Below, one piece after another: positions 6,466 to 18,113 of a stretch of DNA of 27,250 nucleotides. Numbering within the stretch: position 1 is the first letter of the stretch; every line of letters starts with the position of its first letter. The stretch spans positions 1 to 27,250 of the IMG/VR virus record IMGVR_UViG_3300029984_000027; one strand, written 5' to 3'. The notes under the pieces are model-generated. The model ran no database searches. It saw only the letters and a list, made by a program, of their open reading frames with translations, and was not told where the DNA came from. Both the position numbers and the translations under genes were made by a program. Source of the stretch: a virus.

Positions 6466-7737
6466 ATGAAAAAGCAAAAGAACTTCAATAAATTAGCACT
6501 TGCAGCAAAGCCAACGTCCAATACACAGCCAACCGGGCGCAATGCAAGAAAACCACCTATAGCAGACACGCGGGGTTCTGATACTATGGAAATAGACTAT
6601 TTCCGGTTGTATGAGTCCATGTACCGGAAAGAAGTAACTGACTGGCAAAATGCCCGTCTTGCTCGTTATGACCCATTTAATCCTGTAACCTATTTGATAC
6701 AGCAGTTGTACAAAGACGCGATGTTAGATAATCACCTTCAGGGAGCTATCCAACAGCGTATCTTACGCGTTGTCAATAAAATTGCTGTATTCAAAGACGC
6801 TGAAGGAAAACAGGACGATGTGCGTTCAAAACAAATCAATAAGAAGTGGTTTCGTCATGCTATGCGAAAAGCTATGGAATCAAAGTTTTATGAATACAGC
6901 ATGTTCCTGATATCCGATTTCACTTCGGGGAGCATTCGCAAAGTCATTGATATTCCTCGCGAAAACATTATTCCGGAAAAAGGCTTACTATTGAAAGAAG
7001 CCCATAATCCTTCAGGTGTTGCTATCAGGTACGAAGATTTTTCAAACTTTCTTATTTTCATTCAGCTATCACCAGACAAAGGCGGCATCCTGGAACGTAT
7101 TGCACCAATGACTATCTACAAACGCCATTCGTGGGCTTCGTGGGATGAGTTTGAACAGATATTTGGTGTGCCTATCCGTATTGCAAAAACAATGATCAAC
7201 ACCAAAAAGCATAAAGATGAGCTACAGGAGTGGTTGCAAATGATGGGAACTGCCAGTTATGGTATCTTTGACAAACAAACTGAAATTGAAATCAAAGAGA
7301 ATCAGAAAACTGATTCTTTCAACGTCTTTGATAAGAAAATTGAACGCATCAACAAAGAGATGTCCAAAGGCATTGTGGGGCAAACTATGACAATGGACGA
7401 CGGTTCTAGCAAATCACAGGCAGACGTTCACCTTCAAGTGTTCCAAGATATAACCGATGCTGACATTGCTGATGTTCAGGACTGGATTAACGATGATTTC
7501 ATCCCTGTTTTACGCAACCTTGGTTTTGATATTCCGGAAGGCTATACCGTGGAACTTCAGGCTAAAAAGAACGTGAAAGCGAGTGAAAAAATTAAGGAAG
7601 ATAGTGAGTTGCTTAAGTATGGTTATAACCTTACGCCCGAATATATAGAAAGTACTTACGGTGTAACGCTTGATAAAAAGAATCCCAAAACGCAACCGGA
7701 GAAAGCAAGTAACCAGTCGCTCAGTTTTTTCGACTAG
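6466..7737 (+). CDS. Portal protein (DUF935, Mu gp29-like)
   Basis: This 423-aa protein would form the ring at the capsid vertex through which DNA is packaged. The N-terminus is disordered and basic. The core matches DUF935 portals in order: YRKEVTDWQNARLARYDPFNP, AMLDNHLQGAIQQRILRVVN, ERIAPMTIYKRHSWASWDEF, FGVPIRIAKTM, and GSSKSQADVHLQVFQDITDADIADV near the end. It is shorter than Mu gp29 (about 510 aa). The gene ends AGT TTT TTC GAC TAG, a slippery run followed by a strong stem-loop, so some ribosomes may shift -1 and continue into MuF. It is followed directly by that structure. Confidence 0.9.
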   Translation: MKKQKNFNKLALAAKPTSNTQPTGRNARKPPIADTRGSDTMEIDYFRLYESMYRKEVTDWQNARLARYDPFNPVTYLIQQLYKDAMLDNHLQGAIQQRILRVVNKIAVFKDAEGKQDDVRSKQINKKWFRHAMRKAMESKFYEYSMFLISDFTSGSIRKVIDIPRENIIPEKGLLLKEAHNPSGVAIRYEDFSNFLIFIQLSPDKGGILERIAPMTIYKRHSWASWDEFEQIFGVPIRIAKTMINTKKHKDELQEWLQMMGTASYGIFDKQTEIEIKENQKTDSFNVFDKKIERINKEMSKGIVGQTMTMDDGSSKSQADVHLQVFQDITDADIADVQDWINDDFIPVLRNLGFDIPEGYTVELQAKKNVKASEKIKEDSELLKYGYNLTPEYIESTYGVTLDKKNPKTQPEKASNQSLSFFD

Positions 7738-11666: not shown

Positions 11667-11831
11667 TCATTTATTTGATGTAATTATTAGATAAAACCCA
11701 AACAACCATGCAGACACAATTACTCCATCACTTATGTATTCAGCCAAATTCTGAGCTGGTAGCGTCGTCTCTAAGACGATAAATACTACTGATATGATTA
11801 TCAGTAAGAATCCGTAGTCTTTTCTTTTCAT
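11667..11831 (-). CDS. Small two-segment membrane protein
   Basis: A 54-aa ORF starting at the ATG at 11831 with two hydrophobic segments: residues 8-20 (FLLIIISVVFIVL) and 36-52 (GVIVSAWLFGFYLIITS). A short polar loop (ETTLPAQNLAEYISD) joins them. It fills the space between the repeated RNA element copy 1 and the zinc-ribbon gene, four bases before the latter's ATG. The composition and tight spacing support a real gene. A holin-like or envelope role is possible but unsupported. Confidence 0.6.
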   Translation of the reverse strand: MKRKDYGFLLIIISVVFIVLETTLPAQNLAEYISDGVIVSAWLFGFYLIITSNK

Positions 11832-11851
11832 AAAAGTATTGTTTAAATATT

Positions 11852-11925
11852 GTTTAAATGTGCCGGCCTGCGCTCAGGTTATCGGCTTAGTCGCCGAGCA
11901 TCGGTTCAATGATGCGCGGCTAGGA
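11852..11925 (-). repeat. Structured intergenic repeat, copy 1
   Basis: Read on the plus strand the element has two hairpins. The first is GCCG-G-CCTG (11862-11870) with loop CGCT, closed by CAGG-TTAT-CGGC (11875-11886). The second is GCCG-A-GCATC (11893-11902) with loop GGTTCAAT, closed by GATGC-G-CGGC (11911-11920). It lies in the leader of the 54-aa membrane protein gene, followed by an A-rich stretch to the ATG. Copy 2 at 12153 has the same loops but different, compensating stem bases. Confidence 0.7.
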
Positions 11926-11929
11926 GTTA

Positions 11930-12133
11930 TTACCATCCAATACTTTTTGATATTTCAGGTGTAAAGCCTCCATAATGAACAAAGAGTCTGTCTCTGAAGT
12001 ATGCTGCCAGTTCGGTTGTGTTATCTCTCCATATTGCAGGGGATGTACCAAAACGCCACATTTTACACATTTCAATGTGAGATAAAGCATCAATTTTTTG
12101 TTTTTCTCTTTCAATGTCAATTTGTTGTTCCAT
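11930..12133 (-). CDS. Conserved-looking small phage protein
   Basis: A 67-aa protein starting at the ATG at 12133. After a charged helix (MEQQIDIEREKQKIDALSH) it has a Trp-rich core (MCKMWRFGTSPAIWRDNTTE) and ends GGFTPEISKSIGW, ruling out a random ORF by its globular composition. A parallel frame (11920-12120) is a shadow. No function is known to me; it lies between the two copies of the structured repeat, each copy preceding a start codon. Confidence 0.65.
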   Translation of the reverse strand: MEQQIDIEREKQKIDALSHIEMCKMWRFGTSPAIWRDNTTELAAYFRDRLFVHYGGFTPEISKSIGW

Positions 12134-12152
12134 AAATTTTGTGTTTTAAATT

Positions 12153-12222
12153 GTTTTTAAATGTACCGGCCTGCGCTCAGGTAATCGGCTTGGCAGTCAC
12201 GTCGCGGTTCAAAGCGGCGTGA
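12153..12222 (-). repeat. Structured intergenic repeat, copy 2
   Basis: Shares ACCGGCCTGCGCTCAGG-type sequence with copy 1. Hairpin A is CCTG (12170-12173), loop CGCT, CAGG (12178-12181), with CCG/CGG outside. Hairpin B is TCACG-T-CGC (12197-12205), loop GGTTCAAA, then GCG-G-CGTGA (12214-12222). The loop sequence is conserved while the stem of hairpin B changes to maintain pairing. It ends about 20 bases before the 67-aa gene's ATG. Confidence 0.7.
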
Positions 12223-12232
12223 TTGGGTTATG

Positions 12233-12412
12233 TTATATAATTGTTGCATGAGATTTTACAATGCAGCGTTTATTTTCATTCTTATGTATATCATCAGATA
12301 ATAAGTAATAAGAACCCCTATCTACTACATTGAAGTGTCTCCCTTTCATTCCAAAACACCAGACTCCGATTGGCGGGTCTTGGATAATAAGTACTGTGAA
12401 TATTTTATCCAT
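12233..12412 (-). CDS. Small hypothetical early protein
   Basis: A 59-aa ORF starting at the ATG at 12412 (MDKIFTVLIIQDPPIGVWCF), eight bases after the preceding gene's stop and ending just before repeat copy 2. The sequence looks globular (two hydrophobic strands, an H/N/V/V strand and YYLLSDD). Tight fit in the operon supports it; the function is unknown. The opening resembles that of the 85-aa protein in using a beta strand with a D-P-P turn. Confidence 0.55.
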   Translation of the reverse strand: MDKIFTVLIIQDPPIGVWCFGMKGRHFNVVDRGSYYLLSDDIHKNENKRCIVKSHATII

Positions 12413-12678: not shown

Positions 12679-12714
12679 GACTCTTCTGTTTTAGGTTCTT
12701 GTTCTTTAGTTTAA

Positions 12715-12728
12715 GCGGTACAAACCGC
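12715..12728 (-). repeat. Leader hairpin before the 85-aa gene
   Basis: GCGGT (12715-12719) and ACCGC (12724-12728) form a compact stem with loop ACAA on the plus strand. An A-rich leader then runs to the ATG at 12678. The arrangement of hairpin then A-rich tract then ATG is the same as at the two repeats and before the transposase. Confidence 0.4.
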
Positions 12729-12747
12729 GTATGTGTTCTAAATCGTT

Positions 12748-15876: not shown

Positions 15877-18048
15877 TTAGTTCAATTCTATTCTATGTAT
15901 TTCACCGGTATCCGGGTCAGTCAGTTCTTTATATTTTGGAGCTTCTTTAGCTTCAATTTCATCTAGTAGCAAAGCACTTTTATCATACCGACCTTGAATT
16001 CGTTTTTCAGAGTCAACATACGCACGTCGCTTCCCTGTCAGCATTTCATTTCCAAGTTCTTCAATACGTTCATAATCCGGATGCATGCTCACCTGCTGTT
16101 TAATGTCTGCATTTATAGCTTTAGCCGTTTCCTGGACACGATACTGAAGAGCCATAATATTATTTAGCACTTTTTTTTCTTCTTTGGTTTCAGCTATATA
16201 GGCCGTATGTACTTTCAGTCCCCATATTCCAAGATATTTATCATCGTGGCTGAACACTGGTGCGGGATCTCCACCTTTCAGAATGTAGATTTTAAGTTTG
16301 TTGGCAGTATTGGCATCCATTGGAGTGTAAGTAAATATCCGATCAGCATAAGCACGTTGTTCTGGTGTTTCGATACTCGGAAAATAGCAATAATCCTGAC
16401 CATTGTGCCCAATTTCTAAGCCTTTGATGGTTAGCTTTCTTTCATGGAGTGTGCCACACATCGTGCATAGTTGAGAATAGCTCAATTTAGGCACGTAGCT
16501 TTCATTTTCTTCCCACATCTCATAAGGTGTTTTATTGCATGGCTTTTTCTCAAGTGTTTCAATCACTCGCTCGTTCCATGCTTTAATTCCTTCGGTTTTT
16601 GCCCACTCCATAGCTATGGCGGCACTTCGGGCAGCTTGTTTGCCCTTTGTTTCACGTTTATCAGATGGTTTTGAATTAATAGAGCCGGTTGCAGTGCGGT
16701 TCATGCCGCTAAATCCTTTCATGAACTTGGTAATATCATTATCAAACATATTGAACATAGACTCAATTGTTTTTGCACGAGCATTACCGGTTCGCGAAGC
16801 ATAAAGTTTAATTTCATTTTGGTCGCACCAACGCTCCAACTCTTTATAACTCGGCCCGTGGTCACAGTGTATAATAGCTGGCTTGTAGCCGGTTTCTATA
16901 ATTCCCATAATAATGGCTTCTTTCACCGCATAGAACGGTTCTTTCACACCGATCAATGTTGATACTCCAACCATGCGAAGTGTTGACACGTCAGCGACTT
17001 TAATAGCGTAAATATGCTGGCGTACTTTACCTTTAAACTCTACATTTTCATTTTGAGCTGTACCATCAATAACCCATACATGGTTTTTCTTAGTTGGAAG
17101 GTCGCGCGTAGCAGTCGGAACTGTATTTAGGTAATAATCTACACCATCTGTTTTTTCCAGTCGGTTAGGGTTCTTTAGCGGAGCAAGAAGTTGATATAAT
17201 CTGGCTTCAGTTGGCGGGTTAAAGTTTCCGTTTTCATCTATCCACCAACCTTTTTCCTGTCCATATTGCTTCCATTTTTTATACACATTGGCAATACTCA
17301 TGTTTACTCCGTTTATATGCCAAAATGCTGCTATCCTAAATTGCTCATCTGTAACTTTCGATGCATTTCCATTATTCATACGTTTAGGCAGAATAATATC
17401 TTGAGGGCGTTTACCCTTATCCATTGACGTAATCACATCATCAAACCATTTATTGAAGCGGGTCTCGCTCCGAGGTATTTTCACCTCAAATTCTATCTTG
17501 CTGATAGAGGTTAGCAAGTTCATCCGAAAGCTTCGCACCAAGACTTCGCAACGCTTCACATCCACTTCGCTAGTCTGTATTTTGCTTACAAAATCGAACA
17601 TCCATTGCACCAATGCACACTGTTTTGCATATCCTTTAACCGAGTTGGAGTGTAATCCGAGGTCGAGATAAGAAGCCGTATAAAGTGTGTAATGTGTGTT
17701 CATATAACTTTCAATTGTTGATCGTATAAATGACTCATTTATCTGGAGTGATTCTGCCGTGAATTCCACTGCCATGGGAGCACAATCTTCACCGGCATTG
17801 GCCGCAGTACAGAGTAACTGTGAATACTCATTTTTCAAGTTCGCAAATTTCTCAATAACTTTTGCTTTAGTTACACTGGTTAAGCTATCTACAAACACCC
17901 ATCTTCCGTCCTCGTTTTTTATATCTACCAAACGGCCTTTACTCTTTTGGTTTCTATACGAAACTTCCGTATAAATACCTTTCAAAAGCAAATGCTGTTT
18001 GGAGATCATCAATCTTCCTTGTGGGTCTATGAAAAGTTCTTGTTGCAT
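15877..18048 (-). CDS. DDE transposase (MuA-like)
   Basis: This is the enzyme that replicates and integrates the phage by transposition. The ATG at 18048 (MQQELFIDPQGRLMISKQHL) is preferred. The frame is open to 18105, but that upstream part overlaps a long leader hairpin. The 723-aa product has N-terminal DNA-binding helical regions and a catalytic integrase core with Asp328 (VWVIDGTAQNENV), Asp396 (AIIHCDHGPSYKE) and Glu429 (NARAKTIESMFNMF). The 32-residue D-E spacing agrees with the DDE superfamily. The C-terminal domain, with IKQQVSMHPDYERIEEL and similar helices, would bind the partner ATPase. Size is close to MuA (663 aa). Confidence 0.95.
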   Translation of the reverse strand: MQQELFIDPQGRLMISKQHLLLKGIYTEVSYRNQKSKGRLVDIKNEDGRWVFVDSLTSVTKAKVIEKFANLKNEYSQLLCTAANAGEDCAPMAVEFTAESLQINESFIRSTIESYMNTHYTLYTASYLDLGLHSNSVKGYAKQCALVQWMFDFVSKIQTSEVDVKRCEVLVRSFRMNLLTSISKIEFEVKIPRSETRFNKWFDDVITSMDKGKRPQDIILPKRMNNGNASKVTDEQFRIAAFWHINGVNMSIANVYKKWKQYGQEKGWWIDENGNFNPPTEARLYQLLAPLKNPNRLEKTDGVDYYLNTVPTATRDLPTKKNHVWVIDGTAQNENVEFKGKVRQHIYAIKVADVSTLRMVGVSTLIGVKEPFYAVKEAIIMGIIETGYKPAIIHCDHGPSYKELERWCDQNEIKLYASRTGNARAKTIESMFNMFDNDITKFMKGFSGMNRTATGSINSKPSDKRETKGKQAARSAAIAMEWAKTEGIKAWNERVIETLEKKPCNKTPYEMWEENESYVPKLSYSQLCTMCGTLHERKLTIKGLEIGHNGQDYCYFPSIETPEQRAYADRIFTYTPMDANTANKLKIYILKGGDPAPVFSHDDKYLGIWGLKVHTAYIAETKEEKKVLNNIMALQYRVQETAKAINADIKQQVSMHPDYERIEELGNEMLTGKRRAYVDSEKRIQGRYDKSALLLDEIEAKEAPKYKELTDPDTGEIHRIELN

Positions 18049-18069: not shown

Positions 18070-18113
18070 AACCCTACCGCGGACACGAACCGCGGTTAAT
18101 TCCAAATAGGGTT
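18070..18113 (-). repeat. Double hairpin in the transposase leader
   Basis: ACCGCGG (18076-18082) pairs with CCGCGGT (18090-18096) around a 7-base loop. AACCCTA (18070-18076) pairs with TAGGGTT (18107-18113) as an outer stem sharing one base. It overlaps the stop of the 90-aa gene and ends about 20 bases before the transposase ATG. A leader structure controlling transposase translation is plausible. Confidence 0.6.

Follow-up and report, generated by a model that had tools for sequence, protein, structure and literature searches.

A two-hairpin RNA that fills gene seams in the early operons of Mu-like phages represents a new structured RNA family, previously undescribed and absent from Rfam. 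The fold is conserved on the coding strand at these seams, stands at fixed distances from the neighbouring stop and start codons, and precedes genes that are exchangeable. Two copies, E1 and E2, lie in the window (the whole stretch of DNA analysed, an IMG/VR virus record of 27,250 bases), and a covariance model raised the total to 16 distinct copies, spread over 13 viral records. All of these belong to a single group of Mu-like phages whose hosts are probably Bacteroidota.

The window virus is a relative of the transposable phage Mu. Its minus-strand early operon encodes a MuA-like transposase whose rve domain match falls below the Pfam cut-off, a MuB-like ATPase that matches PHROG 296, and a second ATPase. 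Its genes are ordered similarly to those of Elizabethkingia phage TCUEAP3 and Flavobacterium phage fF4, which are named Mu-like phages of Bacteroidota (PMC7761591), and by analogy with these relatives the host group is probably Bacteroidota as well. No other non-coding gap of this operon is as long as the two seams that hold the elements (98 and 99 nt); the remaining gaps are at most 34 nt, except one of 69 nt (12679-12747, minus strand), which holds a short piece (MKRFRTHTRFVPLKLK...) left over from a gene of 59 aa that is intact in L018, L021, and L022.

Two elements had been reported by the sequence-only reading just before two small early genes, and both are present there: E2 precedes a 67-aa ORF (11930-12133, minus strand) and E1 a 54-aa ORF (11667-11831, minus strand), neither of which has a Pfam or PHROG match. 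Because both genes are on the minus strand, the transcribed sequences are the reverse complements of the letters first read. The hairpin described as CCTG-CGCT-CAGG is therefore transcribed as CCTG-AGCG-CAGG, and the conserved GGTTCAAW loop is the complement of a transcribed YYGAHC loop (TTTGAACC or ATTGAACC). The compensating change reported for the second stem is likewise real and concerns hairpin P1, which pairs CCGCGCATC with GATGCTCGG in E1 and TCACGCCGC with GCGACGTGA in E2.

The whole of E2 (model positions 1-65) occupies 12165-12229 on the minus strand and scores 76.8 bits (E 2.6e-15) with the second covariance model, R2. Its P1 (12197-12222) has a 9-bp stem with one C-A mismatch and the 8-nt loop TTTGAACC, and its P2 (12165-12189) reads GCCG-ATTA-CCTG-AGCG-CAGG-C-CGGT. 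The stop codon of a 59-aa ORF (12233-12412, minus strand) lies 10 nt before P1, and an A/U-rich leader of 31 nt (12134-12164, 13% G+C, two TTTAAA) runs from P2 to the ATG. E1 occupies 11862-11926 on the same strand (R2, 72.4 bits, E 2.8e-14), with P1 at 11894-11919 (one mismatch, loop ATTGAACC), P2 at 11862-11886 (GCCG-ATAA-CCTG-AGCG-CAGG-C-CGGC), and a 30-nt A/U-rich leader to the ATG at 11832-11861. The two are the sole CCTGAGCGCAGG sites within the window. In general form, P1 has 9 bp, lengthened to 10-12 bp in some copies, and an 8-nt loop, followed by a short linker that ends in RC(N)AA in most copies; P2 has a 4-bp outer stem, an A-rich internal loop of the AUAA type, a 4-bp inner stem, and an AGCG tetraloop. 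Single-sequence folding already recovers this two-hairpin structure, and both window copies fold better than their dinucleotide shuffles (z -2.5 and -2.3).

The covariance model was begun from seven sequences and then extended to R2, and the search covered fetched sequences located through IMG/VR patterns and neighbour proteins. Two copies each were found in the window, L022, L038, and L085, and one each in L005, L008, L017, L018, L020, L021, L031, and L095; the thirteenth record, L019, has a copy identical to that of L018. True copies score 56.8-82.2 bits with R2, and the best other match scores 12.6. Selection on the fold had been proposed from the two window copies, and this covariance-model search in related phages bears the proposal out, since homologues exist and pairing is conserved across the 16 distinct copies. 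In these sequences 94.1% of cells are paired, compared with 74.3% after shuffling and 20-45% when the structure is slid. Both sides have changed at 12 of the 17 base pairs, and 52 cells are doubly changed versus 15.6 in shuffles (0 of 500 shuffles reach 52); the shuffle control ignores the relatedness of the copies, which the slid controls account for. The loops are conserved while the stems vary. The inner P2 stem occurs as CCUG/CAGG, CCAA/UUGG, CCAU/AUGG, and others around an almost invariant AGCG loop, which reads AGAG in L095, and G4, A5, and C7 of the P1 loop are kept in all 15 normal copies; L085b has a replaced P1 loop on a retained stem. Pairing of the P1 loop with either P2 or the leader into a pseudoknot was considered by eye and discarded, as invariant partners were lacking. 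The sequence-only reading had left open whether the hairpins act as RNA or DNA. Wobble use, with eight G-U pairs in the sense orientation and four in the antisense, all four in one column, favours RNA, as do gene orientation and the fixed stop and start spacing; a role for the DNA keeps a small probability.

The earlier statement that the element is no known riboswitch or tRNA holds: Rfam gave no match on the window at the gathering threshold and nothing relevant near the elements even at a lenient E<10, and ARAGORN finds no tRNA in the window. Named phage and plasmid collections searched by DNA yielded chance matches of 21-31 nt. Most exact-pattern matches in IMG/VR were also due to chance, having no fold and at most 25 bits and often lying in G+C-rich contigs, and the match from a scan of genome contigs was a chance hit to an unrelated Chloroflexota sequence. 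With filters off, the element is absent from the whole record of TCUEAP3 and from the early regions of fF4 and phiRTG5; it is also absent from the whole record of L023. L090 and L091 give a weak model match of 12.5 bits. Early-region gaps in L090 (6023-6108) and L096 (3140-3356) open with an AGCG-capped hairpin, CCCGA-AGCG-UCGGG in L090, followed by GUAUCGAAUAC, an arrangement reminiscent of P2.

Every copy fills a gene seam on the coding strand (16/16). In all 16, P1 starts 4-13 nt behind the upstream stop codon, and in 14 of them P2 is followed by an ATG after 26-40 nt. The longest such distance, 56 nt, is found in L008, which carries an extra inserted hairpin, and L005 has no convincing gene start behind its element. 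Behind that element (L005 1403-1600) come a T run and roughly 130 nt of G+C-rich sequence, with no clear gene and no Rfam match. The leaders between P2 and the ATG are A/U-rich and often contain two TTTAAA motifs. The genes downstream of the copies are mostly unrelated to one another: they encode a DUF4494 protein (L038a), a DUF7768 protein (L008), a C-5 cytosine methylase (L031), relatives of PHROG-8581 (L038b and L095), and tandem paralogues (L017, L020, L021, L085b, and L022b), the remainder being small ORFs without Pfam matches. Some accessory genes of the window operon have no element, for example that at 12233-12412. In L085 (4794-6860), an early-region reverse transcriptase (RVT_1) lies behind two tandem paralogues with variable-looking stretches of the GSGSRLQ type; the locus looks like a diversity-generating retroelement in an early operon, and the paralogues also occur in L017, L020, L021, and L022.

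Pairwise comparison showed that the upstream gene, the element, and the downstream gene recombine independently, with junctions at the element borders. L021 and L085b, for example, share downstream DNA that is 98% identical, while P1 is 57% and the upstream DNA 61% identical against a shuffled baseline of 60%. E2 and L038a are 92% identical in P1, and neither flank is similar. Since flanks and element recombine independently, the element is a seam between exchanged genes, with the fold selected while the sequence drifts. These observations add a structured RNA family to a poorly studied phage group and reveal strong selection on RNA folds at the junctions used for accessory-gene exchange.

The leading interpretation, which we credit with slightly less than an even chance, is that the element would be a cis-acting intercistronic RNA that punctuates the early mRNA and serves as a start module for the following gene. 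It would be transcribed as part of a long early mRNA, with P1 beginning a few bases after the upstream stop codon and P2, whose AGCG loop hardly varies and whose internal loop is A-rich, marking the cistron boundary. The unstructured A/U-rich leader of about 30 nt after P2 would suit initiation without a Shine-Dalgarno sequence. To our knowledge, Bacteroidota do not use Shine-Dalgarno pairing, and the element makes translation start inside long operons of their phages testable. In Flavobacterium, weak structure and adenines further upstream tune initiation without Shine-Dalgarno pairing (PMC6847099). The fold would probably insulate the downstream cistron against translation and secondary structure on its upstream side, and a host RNase may cut in or close to P1, so that P2 would remain to stabilise the 5' end. 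Unrelated accessory genes could thus enter the early operon by exchange without losing expression, each having its own translation start. The start-module reading is supported by the location of the copies at seams, their fixed spacing, their A/U-rich leaders, their unrelated downstream genes, their mosaicism, and the constancy of their loops on changing stems, as well as by a separate tRNA-like RNA that precedes MuA in the same stop-RNA-start layout. Against it, P1 is without the elbow features of tRNA, so RNase P and RNase Z need not recognise it; the L005 element has no clear gene start after it and some accessory genes of the operon are elementless; and adjacency to stop codons could come partly from compact gene packing.

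Some standard signals were sought at the same seams and rejected. No intrinsic terminator or attenuator (a G+C-rich hairpin with a T run) is present on the minus strand at E1 or E2, and no copy has the pair of Bacteroidota promoter motifs, at -33 and -7 (TTG-N19-TAnnTTTG), anywhere from 120 nt upstream of the element to nucleotide 40 of its leader. Readthrough of the stop codon would reach the next stop within 0-30 codons across copies (7 and 0 in the window).

Two other explanations are serious rivals of the start module. The first, unlikely in our estimation, is an operator: an RNA-binding protein encoded by phage or host would read one or more of the AGCG loop, the AUAA internal loop, and the loop of P1, and would co-regulate all the marked accessory genes as a regulon. 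Conserved loops on changeable stems are the classic pattern of a protein target, and several copies per genome stand before unrelated genes, but no candidate binding protein was identified and the P1 loop is gone from L085b. Other phages, T4 among them, have translational operators of the regA or gene 32 type, which are also structured RNAs just upstream of phage cistrons; they overlap the ribosome binding site, whereas P2 ends 26-40 nt before the AUG. That is farther upstream than an initiating ribosome usually covers, so simple occlusion is not obvious. The second, which we consider improbable, is an antitermination RNA that modifies the polymerase and would prevent Rho-dependent polarity in untranslated seams. 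The put sequences of phage HK022, which suppress termination without extra proteins, are ~65-70 nt long and occur in two copies of two hairpins in early transcripts, and the present element resembles them in its size (~65 nt), its two hairpins, its occurrence at least twice in some of the genomes, and its place in early operons. However, put lies near early promoters, while the copies described here lie mid-operon, directly before start codons and away from such promoters; both window copies are in one early operon, 303 bp apart, and antitermination gives no reason for a fixed distance from P2 to the AUG.

The independent recombination of flanks and element, with junctions at its borders, could also reflect an element acting as DNA, either a recombination boundary or a folded single-strand site of the attC type that moves gene cassettes. 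Integron attC sites resemble it as structure-conserved sites right after a stop codon between swappable genes; they form one long hairpin with conserved RYYYAAC/GTTRRRY cores and are set apart by fold from the two separate hairpins found here. As the wobbles favour the mRNA strand and recombination needs no fixed distance to a start codon, this explanation is very improbable. Still less credible is a small-molecule riboswitch: the fold is compact, with two hairpins and conserved loops, but it has no Rfam match, no coding-strand terminator at E1 or E2, and no pairing that sequesters the start codon in predicted folds, and it is confined to a single group of phages, in which its duplicates precede unrelated genes. 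A chance repeat, or a recent duplication without structural selection, would account for the almost identical 3' halves of E1 and E2 but is practically negligible, given that 52 cells are doubly changed where shuffles give 15.6 and that slid structures pair in 20-45% of cells.

The start-module reading gains a parallel in a second RNA, a miniature tRNA-like element at 18070-18113 on the minus strand of the window, which ends 21 nt before the MuA ATG. The family came to light at equivalent seams in relatives lacking the two-hairpin element, and most of the Mu-like phages of Bacteroidota that were inspected have such an RNA before MuA. The window copy consists of an acceptor stem (AACCCTA/TAGGGTT), a linker with GG, and a T-arm with a UUCG-type loop (CCGCGG[TTCGTGT]CCGCGG) followed by CAAAA, and its spacing to the ATG falls within the family layout: an acceptor-like stem, a GG linker, a T-arm loop of UUCGNNN or AUCGNNN, usually CAA, and an ATG 15-49 nt on. 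The linker is usually 11-14 nt and is longer in the second copy of TCUEAP3, in Porphyromonas phages, and in one faecal contig. Such an RNA lies directly before MuA in the window, L017, L018, L021, L022, L023, L095, TCUEAP3, fF4, and two Porphyromonas phages, the Porphyromonas version being an almost whole tRNA with the D-arm included; a looser candidate precedes a 694-aa ORF in the faecal contig L116. Second copies stand before other early genes in L023, TCUEAP3, and fF4, the last being a cultured phage with Flavobacterium columnare as host. Shuffled sequences give 0-5 descriptor matches per set, and the pairing is partly circular in that the descriptor selects for it, while the MuA position, GG, and CAA are not selected for. 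GG stands near the start of the nine distinct short linkers, which was reproduced in no shuffled trial. This arrangement fits an elbow of D-loop guanosines and C56, the feature by which RNase P and RNase Z identify tRNA mimics (PMC11693755; PMC4919913).

P1 resembles the T-arm of these mini-tRNAs, as in GUAGG-UUUGAUCG-CCUGC of L017 and GUAGG-UUCGACC-CCUGC of TCUEAP3. Both RNAs occupy the same kind of seam, with a stop codon, a folded RNA, an A/U-rich leader (15-49 nt before MuA in TCUEAP3, fF4, and the Porphyromonas phages), and an ATG, and both have a helix with a T-loop-type loop followed by CAA or, after P1, RC(N)AA. Behind one of the mini-tRNAs, that at 7118-7208 in fF4, stands a second hairpin as well. 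Compared with an acceptor and T-stem of ~12 stacked bp and an NCCA-like end, P1 has 9 bp, or 10-12 bp in some copies, and then RC(N)AA in most. Its loop, however, is 8 nt (NYYGAHCV) rather than the 7-nt UUCRANY with C56, position 56 being U in 14 of 15 copies; it forms one continuous helix without a GG linker of the D-loop type; and a second hairpin with an AGCG loop follows. The two-hairpin element was not filed as tRNA-like because of its loop length, the missing C56, and the missing GG linker. The two RNAs coexist in the window and in L095. A full tRNA also counts among the closest systems: in Bacteroides phage p00 (L120 1767-1850), a tRNA-Arg (CCT) found by ARAGORN is squeezed between two early genes in the same seam layout.

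Punctuation of mRNA by tRNA-like folds is familiar from mitochondria, and the tRNA mimics before MuA suggest that it may operate in phages. Such folds are natural sites for RNase P and RNase Z, and human mascRNA and menRNA are tRNA mimics cut by both enzymes (PMC11693755). The phage RNAs share with them the idea of a tRNA-like fold as a processing site within a longer RNA; unlike them, P1-P2 has no G19-C56 elbow for RNase P and RNase Z to read, and processing here is a proposal. That Mu-like phages of Bacteroidota punctuate their early mRNA in both ways, with host RNase P and RNase Z cleaving tRNA mimics before MuA and with an elbow-less, portable two-hairpin start module, is possible but, as a joint claim, somewhat unlikely. 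The tRNA-like RNA also bears on the start of MuA. In the window the MuA gene (15877-18048, minus strand) probably starts at the ATG at 18048, giving 723 aa; the mechanically assigned TTG start at 18105 reads through the mini-tRNA. In Porphyromonas phage BK068094, the annotated MuA start (3111) similarly falls inside the tRNA-like element.
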